Shown here: piece after piece, positions 2,430 through 7,674 of the stretch
Layout of the letters: each line of letters opens with the position of its first letter
Numbering within the stretch: position 1 is the stretch's first letter
Assembly: GCA_903864555.1 (NCBI GenBank)
Contig: CAIPGJ010000663.1
Location: forward strand, 1-7,674
Length of the DNA: 7,674 nt
DNA from: an uncultured Pseudomonadota bacterium
Lineage (GTDB): Bacteria; Pseudomonadota; Gammaproteobacteria; Burkholderiales; SG8-39
Direction: 5' to 3'
Program-made: the position numbers and the translations under genes
Notes under the pieces: model-generated
Told to the model about the DNA's origin: nothing
Databases searched by the model: none
Seen by the model: the letters and a program-made list of their open reading frames with translations, nothing else

Positions 2430-3620
2430 GTGTCCAAGAGTCTCGGCAAGGTCAAGATCATCGATTTCTCACGCGTGCTGTCAGGGCCGTATGCCACCCT
2501 GATCCTGGGCGACCTGGGCGCTGACATCCTCAAGGTGGAGGAGCCCACCGAGGGCGATGCCACGCGGGAGAACCGCCCCTTCGTCAATGGCCAGAGCCAT
2601 TACTTCCTCAGCCTCAACCGCAACAAGCGCAGCCTCGGGCTGAACCTGAAGACGAAAGAAGGCCAGGCCATTGCCCGCCAGCTGGTGAAGGACGCCGACG
2701 TGGTGCTGGAGAATTTCCGCCCCGGCAAGATGCAGGGGCTGGGCCTGGACTACGAAACCCTGTCGAAGGATAACCCGCGGCTTATCTATTGCTCGGTCAG
2801 CGGCTTTGGCCAGGACGGCCCACTGGCGCAGACGCCGGCCTACAACGACGTGGTGCAGGGCCTGAGCGGCGTGATGAGCATGAACGGCGAGCCCGATGGC
2901 ATGCCGGTGAAGGTGGGCATCCCCATCGGCGACATCGCCGCGGGCATGTTTGCCGCCATGGGCATCCTGTCCGCGCTGTATGAGCGCGAGCACAGCGGTC
3001 GCGGCAAGCACCTGGACATTTCCATGCTCGACTGCCTGATCGGCATGCTGGGCTACTCGGCCGGCTGGTACTTCGCCACCGGCAAGAGCCCGCACCGCGT
3101 CGGCTCGCGCCACCATTCGATTGCACCGGTGGGCGTGTTCCGCACCGCCGATGGCAAGGAACTGATCCTGGCGGTGTTCATCACCAAGTTCTGGCAGCGC
3201 TTTTGCGAGGCTGGCGGACGACCGGAACTGGCCACTGATCCGCGCTTCCAGGCGGCGCAGTCGCGTGTGGAAAACCAGGCCGAACTCTATCCCCTCATCG
3301 AGCAATTGGTGGCCAGCCAGCCACTGGCCTGGTGGTTGAAGGCGCTGTCGGTAGGGGACGTGCCCCATGCGCCGGTGCTGGCGGTGGGCGAGGCGCTGGA
3401 GCAGGAGTACGTGAAGTACCGCCACATGGTGATCGAGGCCACGCATCCCTCGTATGGCCCGGTGAAGATGGTCGGCCCGGTGATCAAGGAACGCGGCGAA
3501 GTGCCGACTGCGGCCAAGGCACCGCCCATGCTGGGCGAGCACAACGTCGAGGTGCTGCGCAGTTGCGGCTATTCCGACGCCGACATCGACAAGCTGCGCA
3601 AGGGCGGCGTCATCGCCTGA
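2430..3620 (+). CDS. CaiB/BaiF (family III) CoA-transferase
   Basis: Family III CoA-transferases move CoA between carboxylic acids through an aspartyl-CoA anhydride/thioester intermediate, as in formyl-CoA and carnitine CoA-transferases. The 396-residue product has the usual length. It opens with KIIDFSRVLSGPYAT and LGDLGADILKVEEP, then LNRNKRSLGLNLKT, ADVVLENFRPG and SVSGFGQDGP. GIPIGDIAAGM follows, where Asp168 matches the catalytic Asp169 of E. coli Frc, and then GRGKHLDISMLD. Translation starts at GTG 2430, chosen because GGAAGAGG (2416-2423) lies six bases upstream and the protein then begins normally. It is the first gene of the plus-strand series and divergent from lysR. Its likely job is to activate the organic acid taken up by the system as a CoA thioester. 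Donor and acceptor cannot be read from sequence. Confidence 0.95.
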   Translation: MSKSLGKVKIIDFSRVLSGPYATLILGDLGADILKVEEPTEGDATRENRPFVNGQSHYFLSLNRNKRSLGLNLKTKEGQAIARQLVKDADVVLENFRPGKMQGLGLDYETLSKDNPRLIYCSVSGFGQDGPLAQTPAYNDVVQGLSGVMSMNGEPDGMPVKVGIPIGDIAAGMFAAMGILSALYEREHSGRGKHLDISMLDCLIGMLGYSAGWYFATGKSPHRVGSRHHSIAPVGVFRTADGKELILAVFITKFWQRFCEAGGRPELATDPRFQAAQSRVENQAELYPLIEQLVASQPLAWWLKALSVGDVPHAPVLAVGEALEQEYVKYRHMVIEATHPSYGPVKMVGPVIKERGEVPTAAKAPPMLGEHNVEVLRSCGYSDADIDKLRKGGVIA

Positions 3621-3691: not shown

Positions 3692-4825
3692 ATGAGTGCA
3701 GTTGAAGGCAAGAAGCAGTCTTTCGACCGACTGACTGACGAGGCGCTGGCGGAACTGCGCGCGGAGATCGGCACCGAAATCAAGGGGCCGCATGGTTACA
3801 TCACCGAAGCCACGCGCGATGGCATCCGCCATTTCGCCATGGGCATCGGCGATGAGAACCCGCTGTGGCAGGACGAGGACTACGCGAAGAAGTCGCCCCT
3901 GGGGACGATTGCCGCGCCGCCCTTCATCCTGCTCGCCTTCAACAAGACGGCCTGGGGCGCGCGCGGCCTGCGCGGCATCCATTCCATGTTCTCGGGCAGC
4001 TATTTCGAGTGGAAGCGTCCGATCGTGCTCGGTGACAAGCTCACCTCCAAGACCATCCTCAAGGACATCGAGATCAAGTCGAGCCGCTTTGCCGGCCGCG
4101 CCATCAAGCAGATCCGTGAGGCCACCTTCCGCGATGCCGCGGGCGAAGTCGTGGCCATCGCGCGTCCCTACAGCTTTCGCATCGAGCGCGACACGGCCAG
4201 CTCCAAGGGCAAGTACAACAGCCTGGTGCTGGGCACCTACACGCCGGAGCAGTACGCCGCCATCGCCGCCGATTACGACAAGGAAGTGCGCCGCGGCAGC
4301 GAGCCGCGCTACTGGGAGGATGTCACCGTGGGCGAGATGATGCCCCATGTGGTGAAGGGCCCGCTCACGGTCACCGACATCATCGTCTTCCTGCAGGGCT
4401 TCGGCGGGCAGTGGCTGCGCGCCCACGGCGATGCGGTGCGCTGGTATGCGCGCCACCCCAAGGGCGGCATCGTCAACAAGTTCGGTGCGCTCGAGCCGCC
4501 GGAGATCGTGCACTGGGACGACGAACTGGCACGTCGCGTCGGTGTGCCCGCTGCCTACGACTACGGCCCGCAGCGCATGGGCTGGCTGGGGCATCTGCTC
4601 ACCAACTGGATGGGCGACCACGGCTTCCTGCGCAGCCTGGATGCCCAGGTGCGCCGCTTCAACCTGGTGGGCGACACCACCTGGTGCCGCGGCAAGGTCG
4701 TCGACAAGCGCGAAGAGGATGGCAGGAAGGTCGTCATCTGCGAAATCTGGTGCGAAGACCAGCGCGGCGACATCACCGCCAAGGGCATGGCCACGGTGGA
4801 ACTGCCGACGAAGCAGGGCCAGTAG
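3692..4825 (+). CDS. MaoC-like double-hotdog hydratase/dehydratase
   Basis: MaoC-type proteins hydrate enoyl-CoA or dehydrate 3-hydroxyacyl-CoA in the cytoplasm. The 377-residue product has the size of a two-hotdog protein: an N-terminal FAS1-dehydratase-like repeat (about residues 20-170) and a C-terminal MaoC repeat (about 205-372). The N-terminal repeat has GDENPLWQDEDYA then IAAPPF. Trp59 sits where active R-hydratases carry His in D-x-N-P-x-H, common in this subfamily as I recall it. The C-terminal repeat has PPEIVHWDDELARRVGVPAAYDYGPQ, offering His274 as the more likely catalytic histidine. The ATG at 3692 is chosen because AAGGAAG (3680-3686) lies five bases upstream; the frame is open farther upstream but overlaps the CoA-transferase gene. 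It sits 71 bp after that gene and 61 bp before the selenoprotein gene. Substrate unknown. Confidence 0.9.
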   Translation: MSAVEGKKQSFDRLTDEALAELRAEIGTEIKGPHGYITEATRDGIRHFAMGIGDENPLWQDEDYAKKSPLGTIAAPPFILLAFNKTAWGARGLRGIHSMFSGSYFEWKRPIVLGDKLTSKTILKDIEIKSSRFAGRAIKQIREATFRDAAGEVVAIARPYSFRIERDTASSKGKYNSLVLGTYTPEQYAAIAADYDKEVRRGSEPRYWEDVTVGEMMPHVVKGPLTVTDIIVFLQGFGGQWLRAHGDAVRWYARHPKGGIVNKFGALEPPEIVHWDDELARRVGVPAAYDYGPQRMGWLGHLLTNWMGDHGFLRSLDAQVRRFNLVGDTTWCRGKVVDKREEDGRKVVICEIWCEDQRGDITAKGMATVELPTKQGQ

Positions 4826-4860: not shown

Positions 4861-4886
4861 GTACGCCAGTACGCAAGGAGGACCGC

Positions 4887-6602
4887 ATGTCAGCACAGGA
4901 ATCCGACGGTTACTACGAGGCCTACTGGCCGCGCGGTCCGCGCCAGAGCAAGATCAAGCCGCTGGCCAAGCGCTTCGATACCCTGGCCGGCAAGAAGGTC
5001 GCCTTCCTCTGGGATTACCTTTTTCGCGGTGACGAGATCTGGGTCACGTTGAAGGAAGAATTGAGCAAGCGTTATCCCGGCATCAGCTTCGTCGACTGGG
5101 CCGAGTTCGGCAACACCCACGGCACCGAGGAGCGCAAGGTGGTGGCCGCGCTGCCGCAGCGCTTCAAGGAACTGGGCGTGGATGCGGCCATCTCCGGGAT
5201 GGGTTGTTGAGGCAGCTGCACGCCCGCCGTGTTGCGGGCCAGTGCAGTGTGCGAGGCGGCGGGGATCCCTTCCTCGACGCTGGTGTGCGAGGGCTTCATG
5301 CCGCAGGCGGCGGCGGTCAGCATCGGCCTGGGACTGCCCAACATTCCCTGTGCCGTGGTGCCCGGCCATACCAATGTGCAGAGCAAGGATGAACTGAAGG
5401 CGAACGTGCTGCGGGTGACGCTGGATCAGGTCATCAGCAACCTCACGCAGACCCCGGCGGTGGCCGGTGAACGGGGCGAACCTGCGCAACAGAGCATCGT
5501 TTTCAAGGGCGGCTTCGATGCCGTCAACCAGTACTTCTACGAGAACGGCTGGGGTGATGGCCTGCCCATCGTGCCACCCACGCGCAGCAAGATCGAGGCC
5601 TTCCTCAGCTGCATCGATCTCGATCCCAACCAGAGCATTGCCACGCTGCTGCCCGAACAGCGCGCCGCCACGGTGTGGAGCATCGCCGTCAACGGCGTGA
5701 TGGCCGGTTGCAAACCCGAATACATGCCCCTGCTGGTAACGCTGGTGGAAGCCATGGCCGACCCGGCCTACGGCGTGGAGCACAGCGGCAACAGTCCGGG
5801 CGGGGAGACCCTCATCATCCTGAACGGTCCCATTACCCAGCAGCTGGACTTCAACTACACCCAGGGGGTGATGCGCGACGGCTTCCAGGCCAACACCTCC
5901 ATCGGCCGCTTCTGGCGCCTGTACCTGCGCAATGTGGCGGGCTTCCTGCCACACAAGAATGACAAGGCCACCTTCGGCAATACCTGGCGTGTGGTGGTGC
6001 CTGAAAACGAAGCCGTGCTGGCAAAGATAGGCTGGCCCACGGTGGGCGTGGACATGGGCAATCCGGCCGGGGCCAACACCGTGACCATCGGCCGTTACAC
6101 CGGTGGCAACCTGCTGGTGTCGGTGTCGGGTGATGTGTACAAGGACATGCTGCCCTATCTGGCCGATGCCGTGGTGCGGCAGATTTCCTGGCAGTTGATG
6201 TTCTCGGTGGGGCAGGGGCTGGGCAAGCTGCGTCCGCTGGTGCTGCTGCCGCCGATTCTGGCCGAAACCATGTCGCGCGCCGGGGTCACCAAGGAAGTAT
6301 TCAAGCAATACCTGTTCGACCACTCGCGCATTCCGGCCAGCCAGTTCTCGCGCATCCTGCGCGACTGGACGCAGAAGCCGACCTGGGACCTGGCCCTGGA
6401 AGTGAAGAACGGGAAGATTCCGAAGATCTTCCACGAGTCCGACGATCCGGACCGGCTGGTGCCGCTGGTGTGGCGCCCGGATGACTACATGGTGGCGGTG
6501 ACGGGTGATCCGCTGCGCAACAACGCCTATGTCTATGCCCACAACGGCCTGCGCGGTTATCCGGTGAGCAAGGTGGTGCGCCACGCCAAGGGCAAGGTCT
6601 GA
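4887..6602 (+). CDS. UGSC-family selenoprotein with large C-terminal domain; in-frame TGA read as selenocysteine
   Basis: One frame runs from ATG 4887 to TGA 6600-6602 with a single internal TGA at 5208-5210, giving 571 residues including Sec108. AAGGAGG (4875-4881) five bases upstream fixes the start. Residues 1-195 look like an alternating alpha/beta domain: strand KKVAFLWDYL, strand ISFVDW, strand VDAAISGMGC, then Cys107-Sec108-Gly-Ser-Cys111 at the start of a helix. Sec108 and Cys111 form a UxxC redox pair. Protein sequence after the TGA (TPAVLRASAVCEAAGI, VCEGFMPQAA) continues the same domain without a new start or ribosome site, so this is not two genes. About residues 207-571 form a second domain with GWGDGLPIVPPT (222-232) and AGCKPEY (Cys275); I cannot name it with confidence. 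From memory, UGSC proteins are a known but uncharacterised (seleno)protein family. A redox role is inferred. No signal peptide is seen, so it is probably cytoplasmic. Confidence 0.85.
5208..5247 (+). promoter_or_regulatory. Bacterial SECIS element (UGA plus stem-loop)
   Basis: Directly after TGA 5208-5210 the transcript can fold into a long hairpin. CTGCAC (5216-5221) pairs with GTGCAG (5242-5247), GCCCGC (5222-5227) pairs with GCGGGC (5234-5239), CA (5240-5241) bulges on the 3' side, and CGTGTT (5228-5233) is the apical loop. G5229 is the second loop base, 19 bases after the TGA. A stable upper stem, a small loop with G in its first two positions and this spacing are the described features of bacterial SECIS elements that recruit SelB with Sec-tRNA. 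The folding was done by eye; no free energy was computed. Confidence 0.8.
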
Positions 6603-6780: not shown

Positions 6781-7674
6781 ATGTCGAATCACAGCAAATA
6801 CGGGGGCCTCAGGCGGGCGACCCTGTCGGGTGTGGCCCTGTCGGCGCTGGTCGTGATGCACCCGGGCATGGCACAGGAGTATCCCAACCGGCCCATCCGC
6901 ATCATCACCACCCCGGTGGCCAGCGGCGGCGATGTCGTGGCACGCGAGTTGTCGGCGGGCATGAGCGGTCCTCTGGGCCAGCCCATCGTGGTGGAGAACC
7001 GCGCGGCGCTGAACGCCATCGAATTCGTCGCCAAGGCGGTCCCTGACGGTTACACGCTGCTGGTGAACGGCAGCGTGATCTGGTTGCAGCCGCTGCTGCA
7101 AAAGAGCACGCCCTGGGACCCGGTGCGTGACTTTGCCCCGATCTCGCTGCTGGCGCGCTCGCCCAATGTACTGGTGGTGACGCCATCCATCGGCGTCAAC
7201 AACGTGCGTGAGTTGCTGGCGCTGGCGCGGGCCAAGCCGGGTGCGCTGAGCTATTTCTCGGCCGGGCCGGGGTCCACGTCACAGCTCGCCTCGGAGCTGT
7301 TCAAGTCCATGGGTGGCGGGCTCAATATCGTTGGTGTGGCCTACAAGGGCACCAGCCAGGGCATGATCGACCTCCTCGAAGGCCGCATCCACATGGGCTT
7401 CGTGGTCGGGGCCTCGGTGGCGGGCCAGGTGAAGTCAGGCAGGCTGAAGGCACTGGGCGTCACCAGTCGTCAGGTCACCGCACTGGCAGACGGCCTGCCC
7501 ACCATCTCCGATTCCGGGTTGCCCGGCTATGAGTCGGTGCTGTTGCTCGGCGCCTTTGCCCCGGCGAAAACCTCGCCAGCCCTCATCAACCGCCTGAACC
7601 GGGAAATGGTCAGGGTGCTGAACGAACCTGCGGCCAGGCAGAAGCTGTTCAATGCCGGTGCCGATGTCGTGGCC
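6781..7674 (+). CDS. Bug-family (TctC-like) periplasmic solute receptor, 3' end outside window
   Basis: Bug receptors capture carboxylates or other small solutes in the periplasm, in some cases for tripartite tricarboxylate transporters. The frame is open for 298 codons to the window edge; the family is usually about 320-330 residues, so around 30 are missing. ATG 6781 follows GGAGGAG by six bases. The N-terminus has Arg-Arg, a hydrophobic stretch (about residues 13-26) and a likely signal-peptidase site near GMA-QEYP. Mature-protein landmarks are YPNRPIRIIT, VAKAVPDGYTLLV, the region around FAPISLLARSPNVLVV, SYFSAGPGSTSQLASELF, VAYKGTSQGMIDLLEGRI and GRLKALGVTS. Both N-terminal ligand loops depart from the usual glycine-rich forms: SGGDVVAR where PGGGTDxxAR is typical, and ENRAALNAIEFVAKA where a PGAGGxxG loop is typical. 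Position after the catabolic genes suggests it serves their substrate. No membrane subunits are in view; orphan Bug genes are common in Burkholderiales. Confidence 0.93.
   Translation, partial: MSNHSKYGGLRRATLSGVALSALVVMHPGMAQEYPNRPIRIITTPVASGGDVVARELSAGMSGPLGQPIVVENRAALNAIEFVAKAVPDGYTLLVNGSVIWLQPLLQKSTPWDPVRDFAPISLLARSPNVLVVTPSIGVNNVRELLALARAKPGALSYFSAGPGSTSQLASELFKSMGGGLNIVGVAYKGTSQGMIDLLEGRIHMGFVVGASVAGQVKSGRLKALGVTSRQVTALADGLPTISDSGLPGYESVLLLGAFAPAKTSPALINRLNREMVRVLNEPAARQKLFNAGADVVA

Follow-up and report, generated by a model that had tools for sequence, protein, structure and literature searches.

A UGSC-family selenoprotein gene within an apparent catabolic operon of a betaproteobacterium

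Introduction

When a long bacterial reading frame is interrupted by a single TGA, the codon could end a truncated gene or could specify selenocysteine (Sec) within one full-length protein, and in the second case it has to be asked what such a protein does. This question is raised by a 7,674-bp stretch of DNA from an uncultured betaproteobacterium (the window), for which a preliminary description, made from the sequence alone, proposed a selenoprotein of the UGSC kind. According to the accessible parts of PMC2398784, UGSC is a major selenoprotein family in ocean-sampling data, with 255 Sec and 21 Cys forms listed in 2008, fusion to a domain designated Unknown_1, and a supposed thioredoxin (Trx)-like fold; PMC5029168, as far as available, gives 33 UGSC genes in 26 organisms. 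Selenoprotein family tables are also found in the available parts of PMC9312934 and PMC1088965, and UGSC is not mentioned in the available portion of the main text of PMC12013277. The locus looks like one full-length UGSC-family selenoprotein gene within an apparent catabolic operon, and to the preliminary description we add a probable kinship to PrdB and GrdB, a separable C-terminal domain, and an array of paralogues.

Results and Discussion

The in-frame TGA is kept in relatives and replaced by cysteine in others

The TGA at codon 108 is the only stop inside the 571 codons of the frame, which itself ends in a TGA (6600-6602). It is preceded by TGT (Cys107) and followed by GGC AGC and then TGC (Cys111), giving C-U-G-S-C. 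The Pfam UGSC family (PF24696) matches residues 13-187, and therefore spans the TGA, with 95.3 bits against a cut-off of 25, so that the proposed continuity of the frame, and the suggested match to UGSC profiles, are both borne out. At least 510 stretches in the genome collection encode relatives, and in all of the best 80 of these, which we kept, the genome contigs have TGA followed by GG at codon 108, neither another stop nor a Cys codon occurring at that position. From the protein database we took the best 120 of 4065 matches. Eleven are full-length (97-99% query coverage), each with Cys at position 108; the remaining 109, one of which is the window's own, are partial and cover 73-80%, and the five of these that were aligned all begin at residue 115, behind the Sec. 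An in-frame UGA kept in orthologues with Cys in other homologues is the pattern by which bacterial selenoproteins are recognized, and position 108 almost certainly encodes Sec. The prediction that automated calling would split the gene also held, and standard gene calling hides such proteins as headless hypotheticals; the use of selenium by environmental Betaproteobacteria of this kind is therefore probably underestimated.

Cys forms were also sought in a sample of 398 Pseudomonadota genomes, and none was found there. A motif search matched three genomes, including G011, all with TGA and one of them probably by chance; a search with the Cys proteins, scoring at most three candidates per genome, likewise matched three, namely G011 (in TGA forms) and two by the C-terminal domain only. 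Judged by this sample, in which three of 398 genomes match with G011 included, the gene is rare outside this lineage.

These observations bear directly on whether the TGA is instead a true stop, or an assembly or sequencing error, leaving a pseudogene or two ORFs (a 107-residue truncated product and a headless downstream protein). Gene callers do split the gene, as the 109 headless entries among the best 120 matches illustrate, and read-through is here a prediction from sequence, but an error is very unlikely when the same codon is TGA in 80 of 80 loci; moreover, the Cys homologues form one continuous chain, the codons just 3' of the TGA are frozen at synonymous sites (see below), and no convincing ribosome site precedes the GTG at 5229, in keeping with the earlier reading of the downstream half, such that we give this explanation next to no weight. 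Reassignment of TGA to a standard amino acid (Trp or Gly), or low-level read-through without selenium, is similarly dismissed, for while an open frame does not by itself tell which residue is inserted, the absence of any Cys codon or other stop among the 80 loci also makes an alternative code very unlikely, residue 108 in the 11 full-length relatives is Cys rather than Trp or Gly, TGA terminates both the selenoprotein gene and the upstream CoA-transferase gene, and a tRNA-Sec scores over cut-off in 37 of 38 relatives' genomes.

A hairpin behind the UGA is conserved and its codons are frozen

The preliminary description placed a bSECIS-like hairpin at the TGA, and we find one just 3' of it: CTGCAC-GCCCGC-(CGTGTT)-GCGGGC-CA-GTGCAG, in which the CA is bulged. 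It is weak in the single sequence, the folding of which is not above chance (z -0.92; an equally good fold is reached by 34 of 200 shuffles), and Rfam gives no credible match at the hairpin, but comparison across genes supports it. We assembled 85 genes (81 distinct) from 86 places, having dropped a chance antisense match in L013. Over the 81 distinct sequences, 95.9% of cells are paired, as against 22-53% in controls with a slid partner. Cells with a double change number eight, which 0 of 500 shuffles reached, although the number of pairs changed on both sides is not above that of the shuffles (172 of 500), and the controls slid by -1 and +2 have 15 and 12 double-change cells, more than the hairpin's eight. 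At the foot of the upper stem, G-C is replaced by A-U in three genes.

A test that is independent of pairing, and is our strongest for the hairpin, is that of codon entropy in 84 genes (one of the 85 was dropped for its short downstream part) over 215 conserved codon columns. Thr112, Pro113, Ala114, and Val115 each have a codon entropy below all 94 other four-fold columns, and Leu116 and Arg117 lie below all 46 other six-fold columns, with the Leu116 codon being TTG in 81 of 83 cases. Among the 92 seven-codon windows the minimum (-3.63) falls at codons 111-117, whereas the lowest value outside the hairpin is -1.11. The natural explanation of this synonymous freeze is a constraint on the RNA. 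By pairing and codon freeze, if not by single-sequence folding or Rfam, the hairpin just behind the UGA thus qualifies as a bacterial SECIS, and we consider it very likely that the gene combines a selenoprotein with a SECIS element, an assessment that does not extend to the chemistry proposed below.

Diverged paralogues have a second hairpin sequence, GTCGTGG/CCACGAC, at the same place. With one mismatch allowed, this pattern occurs in 37 of the 38 relatives' genomes, 0 to 28 times per genome, and its reversed control does not occur. All four genomes in G011's family match this second type, with TGA each time even though Cys codons were allowed. A crude stem search in one genome with many paralogues (G005, described below) finds a stem of at least five uninterrupted pairs behind 45 of 49 paralogous TGAs and none of that length behind the other four.

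Relatives carry the selenocysteine machinery

The genes for Sec incorporation were sought in 38 genomes of relatives, reached through 38 of the 80 loci and distinct from the window's own genome. Scores over cut-off were obtained for selA in 38 of 38, selB in 36, tRNA-Sec in 37, and selD in 37. The misses are in G003 (selB and tRNA-Sec), G025 (selB, fragmented at contig ends), and G007 (selD), genomes whose completeness is not given. Among 14 control genomes, selA passes in one, selB in two, selD in two, and tRNA-Sec in five, which makes tRNA-Sec the less specific marker. That the relatives have Sec machinery is well supported by these matches. As far as they were sought, none of the findings that would have counted against the preliminary description was encountered: Sec genes are present in relatives, and homologues have Sec or Cys at position 108.

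We note that the selD matches of 31 of the 37 genomes contain a single internal TGA (e.g., G005:C41:26860-27789), and SelD may itself be a selenoprotein in those genomes. In several genomes, moreover, UGSC genes are found no more than about 250 bases from selA (G017:C185, G020:C138, G026:C110, G029:C129, and G031:C201).

The Sec domain belongs to the UGSC family and is probably remote kin of PrdB and GrdB

The protein is a UGSC-family (PF24696) selenoprotein and thus of an already known kind; some Burkholderiales relatives already have the NCBI name 'UGSC family (seleno)protein'. All of 24 diverse relatives match PF24696 at E <= 10, the best at 1e-46. In contrast, the short NCBIfam equivalog UGSC_fam (NF041046, 147 positions) is matched by the window protein only below cut-off, at 42.6 versus 125 bits. 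In the 24 members, position 108 (with TGA read as C), Gly109, and Cys111 are invariant. The two cysteines that had been described as flanking the TGA are present in the window, but only Cys111 is a family feature; among close relatives, L016, L074, and L078 have Ser or Ala at position 107, and distant paralogues have Ala or Asp there. In an AlphaFold2 model, residue 108 lies between a strand (100-106) and a helix (111-124), at the strand-helix junction where it had been expected, and residues 37-187 alternate strand and helix five times and align mostly to Rossmann-like chains. A UxxC redox motif at such a junction is shared with Trx-like UxxC selenoproteins, from which the regular beta-alpha alternation of the model differs.

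Weaker profile matches point to a further relationship. With the same 24 members, the NCBI models reached at E <= 10 include PrdB (TIGR04483) in 15, GrdB (TIGR01917) in nine, GrdF in six, and GrdH in three, with best E values of 2e-4, 6e-4, 2e-3, and 6e-4, respectively. PrdB is the Sec subunit of D-proline reductase, and GrdB, GrdF, and GrdH belong to glycine, sarcosine, and betaine reductase; the PrdB match stays far under the equivalog cut-off (20.7 versus 300 bits). Pfam gives no glycine-reductase family for these members at E <= 10, which lowers the odds of a PrdB-like homology. When the UGSC proteins are aligned by hhalign with PrdB-like proteins of the same genomes, the probability is 83.6% and E is 8e-6 for this one comparison, and U-x-x-C-T stands over U-x-x-C-T, with Glu and Gly-Ile-Pro at equal spacing behind. 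With profile kinship and the Sec columns aligned, the Sec domain is probably a remote relative of PrdB and GrdB over its Sec-bearing part. For comparison, PrdB of C. sticklandii has its Sec at position 152 of 242, and a mechanism for PrdB is proposed in the available part of PMC3091704, the source of both statements. None of the titles and abstract openings that we found in the literature reports a link between UGSC and PrdB, or a UGSC copy number such as that described below. For a family presented in the accessible part of PMC2398784 as a major one of aquatic metagenomes, the probable kinship gives a testable chemistry.

The same genomes have a second long selenoprotein family, that of the PrdB-like genes at L184-L190 (e.g., L184:958-2190, minus strand). 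In their products, a PrdB-like N-terminal part bearing U-P-x-C-T-C is joined to about 180 more residues, for a total of about 400-440.

A separable C-terminal domain

Fused behind the Sec domain is a C-terminal domain of about 370 residues, a difference from PrdB and GrdB. It has no match in NCBIfam or Pfam, and PDB sequences match residues 204-571 only at chance level (best E 0.06). PrdB and GrdB systems have a pyruvoyl-forming partner (PrdA or GrdE), whereas none is recognized in this domain: no PrdA- or GrdE-like model is among the NCBIfam or Pfam matches of the domain, and two stand-alone copies have no NCBIfam match. Pfam searches with the domain and these two copies gave a single weak thioredoxin-like match below cut-off. 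Copies of the domain on its own are common: with one such copy as the query, 7991 of 7996 scored proteins match at E <= 0.001; all of the 120 listed are 369-379 residues long, and those with names are called 'hypothetical protein'. Cys275 is invariant in 68 aligned sequences. In two loci (L174 and L156), a stand-alone UGSC gene lies directly 5' of a stand-alone C-terminal gene, and from this adjacency we suggest that the two parts probably work together. As a fused or split partner, the domain would make this a defined two-part enzyme.

Gene neighborhood

The features of the window are collected in Table 1. The first three plus-strand genes are separated by gaps of only 71 and 61 bases, and these short gaps suggest that the CoA-transferase, hydratase, and selenoprotein genes form an operon.

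Table 1. Features of the window and of two loci with the split gene arrangement
Feature	Position	Strand	Basis or remark
Thiolase gene		-	Cut by window start
LysR regulator gene	2155-1232	-	
CoA-transferase family III gene, upstream	2430..3620	+	PF02515, 415.6 bits
FAS1-DH/MaoC-like hydratase gene	3692..4825	+	PF13452 and PF01575; ends 61 bases 5' of the selenoprotein gene
Ribosome-binding site AAGGAGG	4875..4881	+	Sequence reading; 5 bases 5' of ATG 4887
Selenoprotein gene, UGSC family	4887..6602	+	571 codons and a stop, Sec at codon 108; TGA-as-U translation, PF24696, TGA in 80/80 kept loci
UGSC domain, residues 13-187	4923..5447	+	PF24696; alternating beta-alpha model; probable remote PrdB/GrdB kin
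Sec108 codon TGA	5208..5210	+	Translation, homologue alignment, comparison of loci
Bacterial SECIS hairpin	5216..5247	+	Pairing over 81 distinct sequences; synonymous freeze of codons 111-117
SECIS lower stem	5216-5221/5242-5247	+	
SECIS upper stem	5222-5227/5234-5239	+	
SECIS loop	5228-5233	+	
Cys111, second residue of UxxC	5217..5219	+	Invariant in 24 diverse members
C-terminal domain, residues 204-571	5496..6599	+	Unmatched in Pfam and NCBIfam; also occurs as a stand-alone protein; Cys275 invariant
TctC (Bug-type) solute-binding protein gene	6781..7674	+	PF03401, 180.2 bits; cut by window end
Stand-alone C-terminal genes behind stand-alone UGSC genes	L156:2173-3291; L174:2718-3833		Split form of the window's fused protein

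A TctC gene lies within 3 kb of 60 of 81 loci, the window included, and TctC is matched by 44 of 127 neighboring ORFs (those left of the 154 nearest ORFs after 27 were omitted by hand). We considered a tight linkage of TctC to the selenoprotein gene but rejected it, because the density of TctC genes hardly drops with distance (2.54 per 10 kb at 0-2 kb, 1.72 at 2-4 kb, 2.65 at 4-6 kb, and 1.37 at 6-8 kb); the abundance of TctC is rather a trait of these genome regions. Only 13 and 5 of the 81 loci have genes like the window's CoA-transferase and FAS1-DH genes, respectively, within 3 kb, and Pyr_redox_2 oxidoreductases are matched by 9 of the 127 ORFs. One gene at L156 (4283-5413, minus strand) looks on inspection like a close homologue of the FAS1-DH/MaoC gene in the window; it adjoins a TctC gene and the split UGSC pair, echoing the gene content of the window.

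A proposed function

The operon content suggests that carboxylates are taken up by the Bug protein, the linkage of which is loose, and are handled as CoA esters, and we infer that the selenoprotein performs a Sec-dependent reduction in this carboxylate/CoA operon. By analogy, the Sec domain would act like the Sec subunit PrdB or GrdB of proline or glycine reductase. The neighboring Bug protein would import the substrate, the CoA-transferase would activate it, and the MaoC-like hydratase would process it. The substrate, a small carboxylate or the corresponding CoA ester, would be held by the C-terminal domain and attacked at an activated carbon by the Sec108 selenolate; Cys111 would then resolve the seleno-adduct, forming a selenide-sulfide, and reduction by a thiol would restore the Sec/Cys pair. 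A PrdB-like reductive cleavage is our tentative choice, although somewhat short of probable, and the substrate class, a small carboxylate or CoA ester, is a rather doubtful part of the proposal.

A different possibility is that the selenoprotein is a general thiol-disulfide oxidoreductase and not a PrdB-like reductive enzyme, as the UxxC motif and the Pyr_redox_2 oxidoreductases among the neighboring ORFs could suggest. The regular alternation and mostly Rossmann-like alignments of the model speak against this, although a relation to Trx is possible, and the sequence kinship points to PrdB and GrdB; tens of diverged copies in one genome (see below) further suggest specialized roles. We regard a general oxidoreductase as unlikely, although it deserves to be taken seriously. 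A selenoprotein peroxidase or other detoxifying enzyme is improbable. Kinship to GrdB is in its favor, and the title of one paper cited in PMC3091704 concerns peroxidase activity of GrdB, but the window's neighbors encode a CoA-transferase, a hydratase, and a solute-binding protein, and the many diverged copies in one genome again argue otherwise.

Expansion of the family

Copies of the gene are numerous in some relatives. In a scan that scored at most 35 candidates per genome, the family profile matches all 38 genomes, from 2 to at least 35 times, with C-terminal-only matches included. The U-G-S-C-T-P-A pattern likewise occurs in 38 of 38, 1 to 11 times, against once for the reversed control, and some of its matches look like chance. 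The genome of locus L005 (G005, a 5.7-Mb metagenome-assembled genome [MAG]) had the most candidates at first look and was searched alone, yielding 70 family-profile matches among 100 candidates. All 70 places were fetched, and 55 fit TGA-GG-x-[Ser/Ala/Thr/Gly]-Cys; in 49 of them the frame is open for at least 55 codons before the motif and at least 30 behind it, giving at least 49 distinct UGSC genes. The downstream part is long in 32 and short in 17; among the short ones, C307 is a fused gene that contains a second stop. When TAA or TAG was substituted for TGA, the motif was found nine times, once with open frames (overlapping loci being unmerged). Even the closest pair among the 49 shares 74% identity over the Sec domain, too little for strain mixture to account for the count. 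Mixed species in this MAG are possible; selA, selB, and tRNA-Sec each score over cut-off once, all on contig C221. G005 is the richest of the 38 genomes, and several others have only one or two UGSC genes.

At least 49 copies in one MAG compares with the 33 genes in 26 organisms of PMC5029168 (as far as available), and with the 57 and 63 genes of the largest whole bacterial selenoproteomes in the available part of PMC13188914, the figure of 63 carrying a co-assembly caveat; there, anaerobes are called richest in selenoproteins. It is conceivable, and we offer it as speculation, that in a lineage of environmental Betaproteobacteria one PrdB/GrdB-like Sec domain has given rise to a large substrate-diversified family, with up to tens of members per genome, fused or split, each of them paired with the one unnamed C-terminal domain and acting on an imported carboxylate of its own. 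If so, this would be an expansion of a single selenoprotein family to near the size of those largest selenoproteomes, and in a group that the available part of PMC13188914 does not list with the clades rich in selenoproteins.

Some MAG records under other names have UGSC genes closely resembling those of records labelled Betaproteobacteria. Several are titled Bordetella parapertussis, one Chloroflexi, and one Chitinophaga pinensis; such records include those of L001, L019, L020, L060, and L065, and the names may be wrong assignments.
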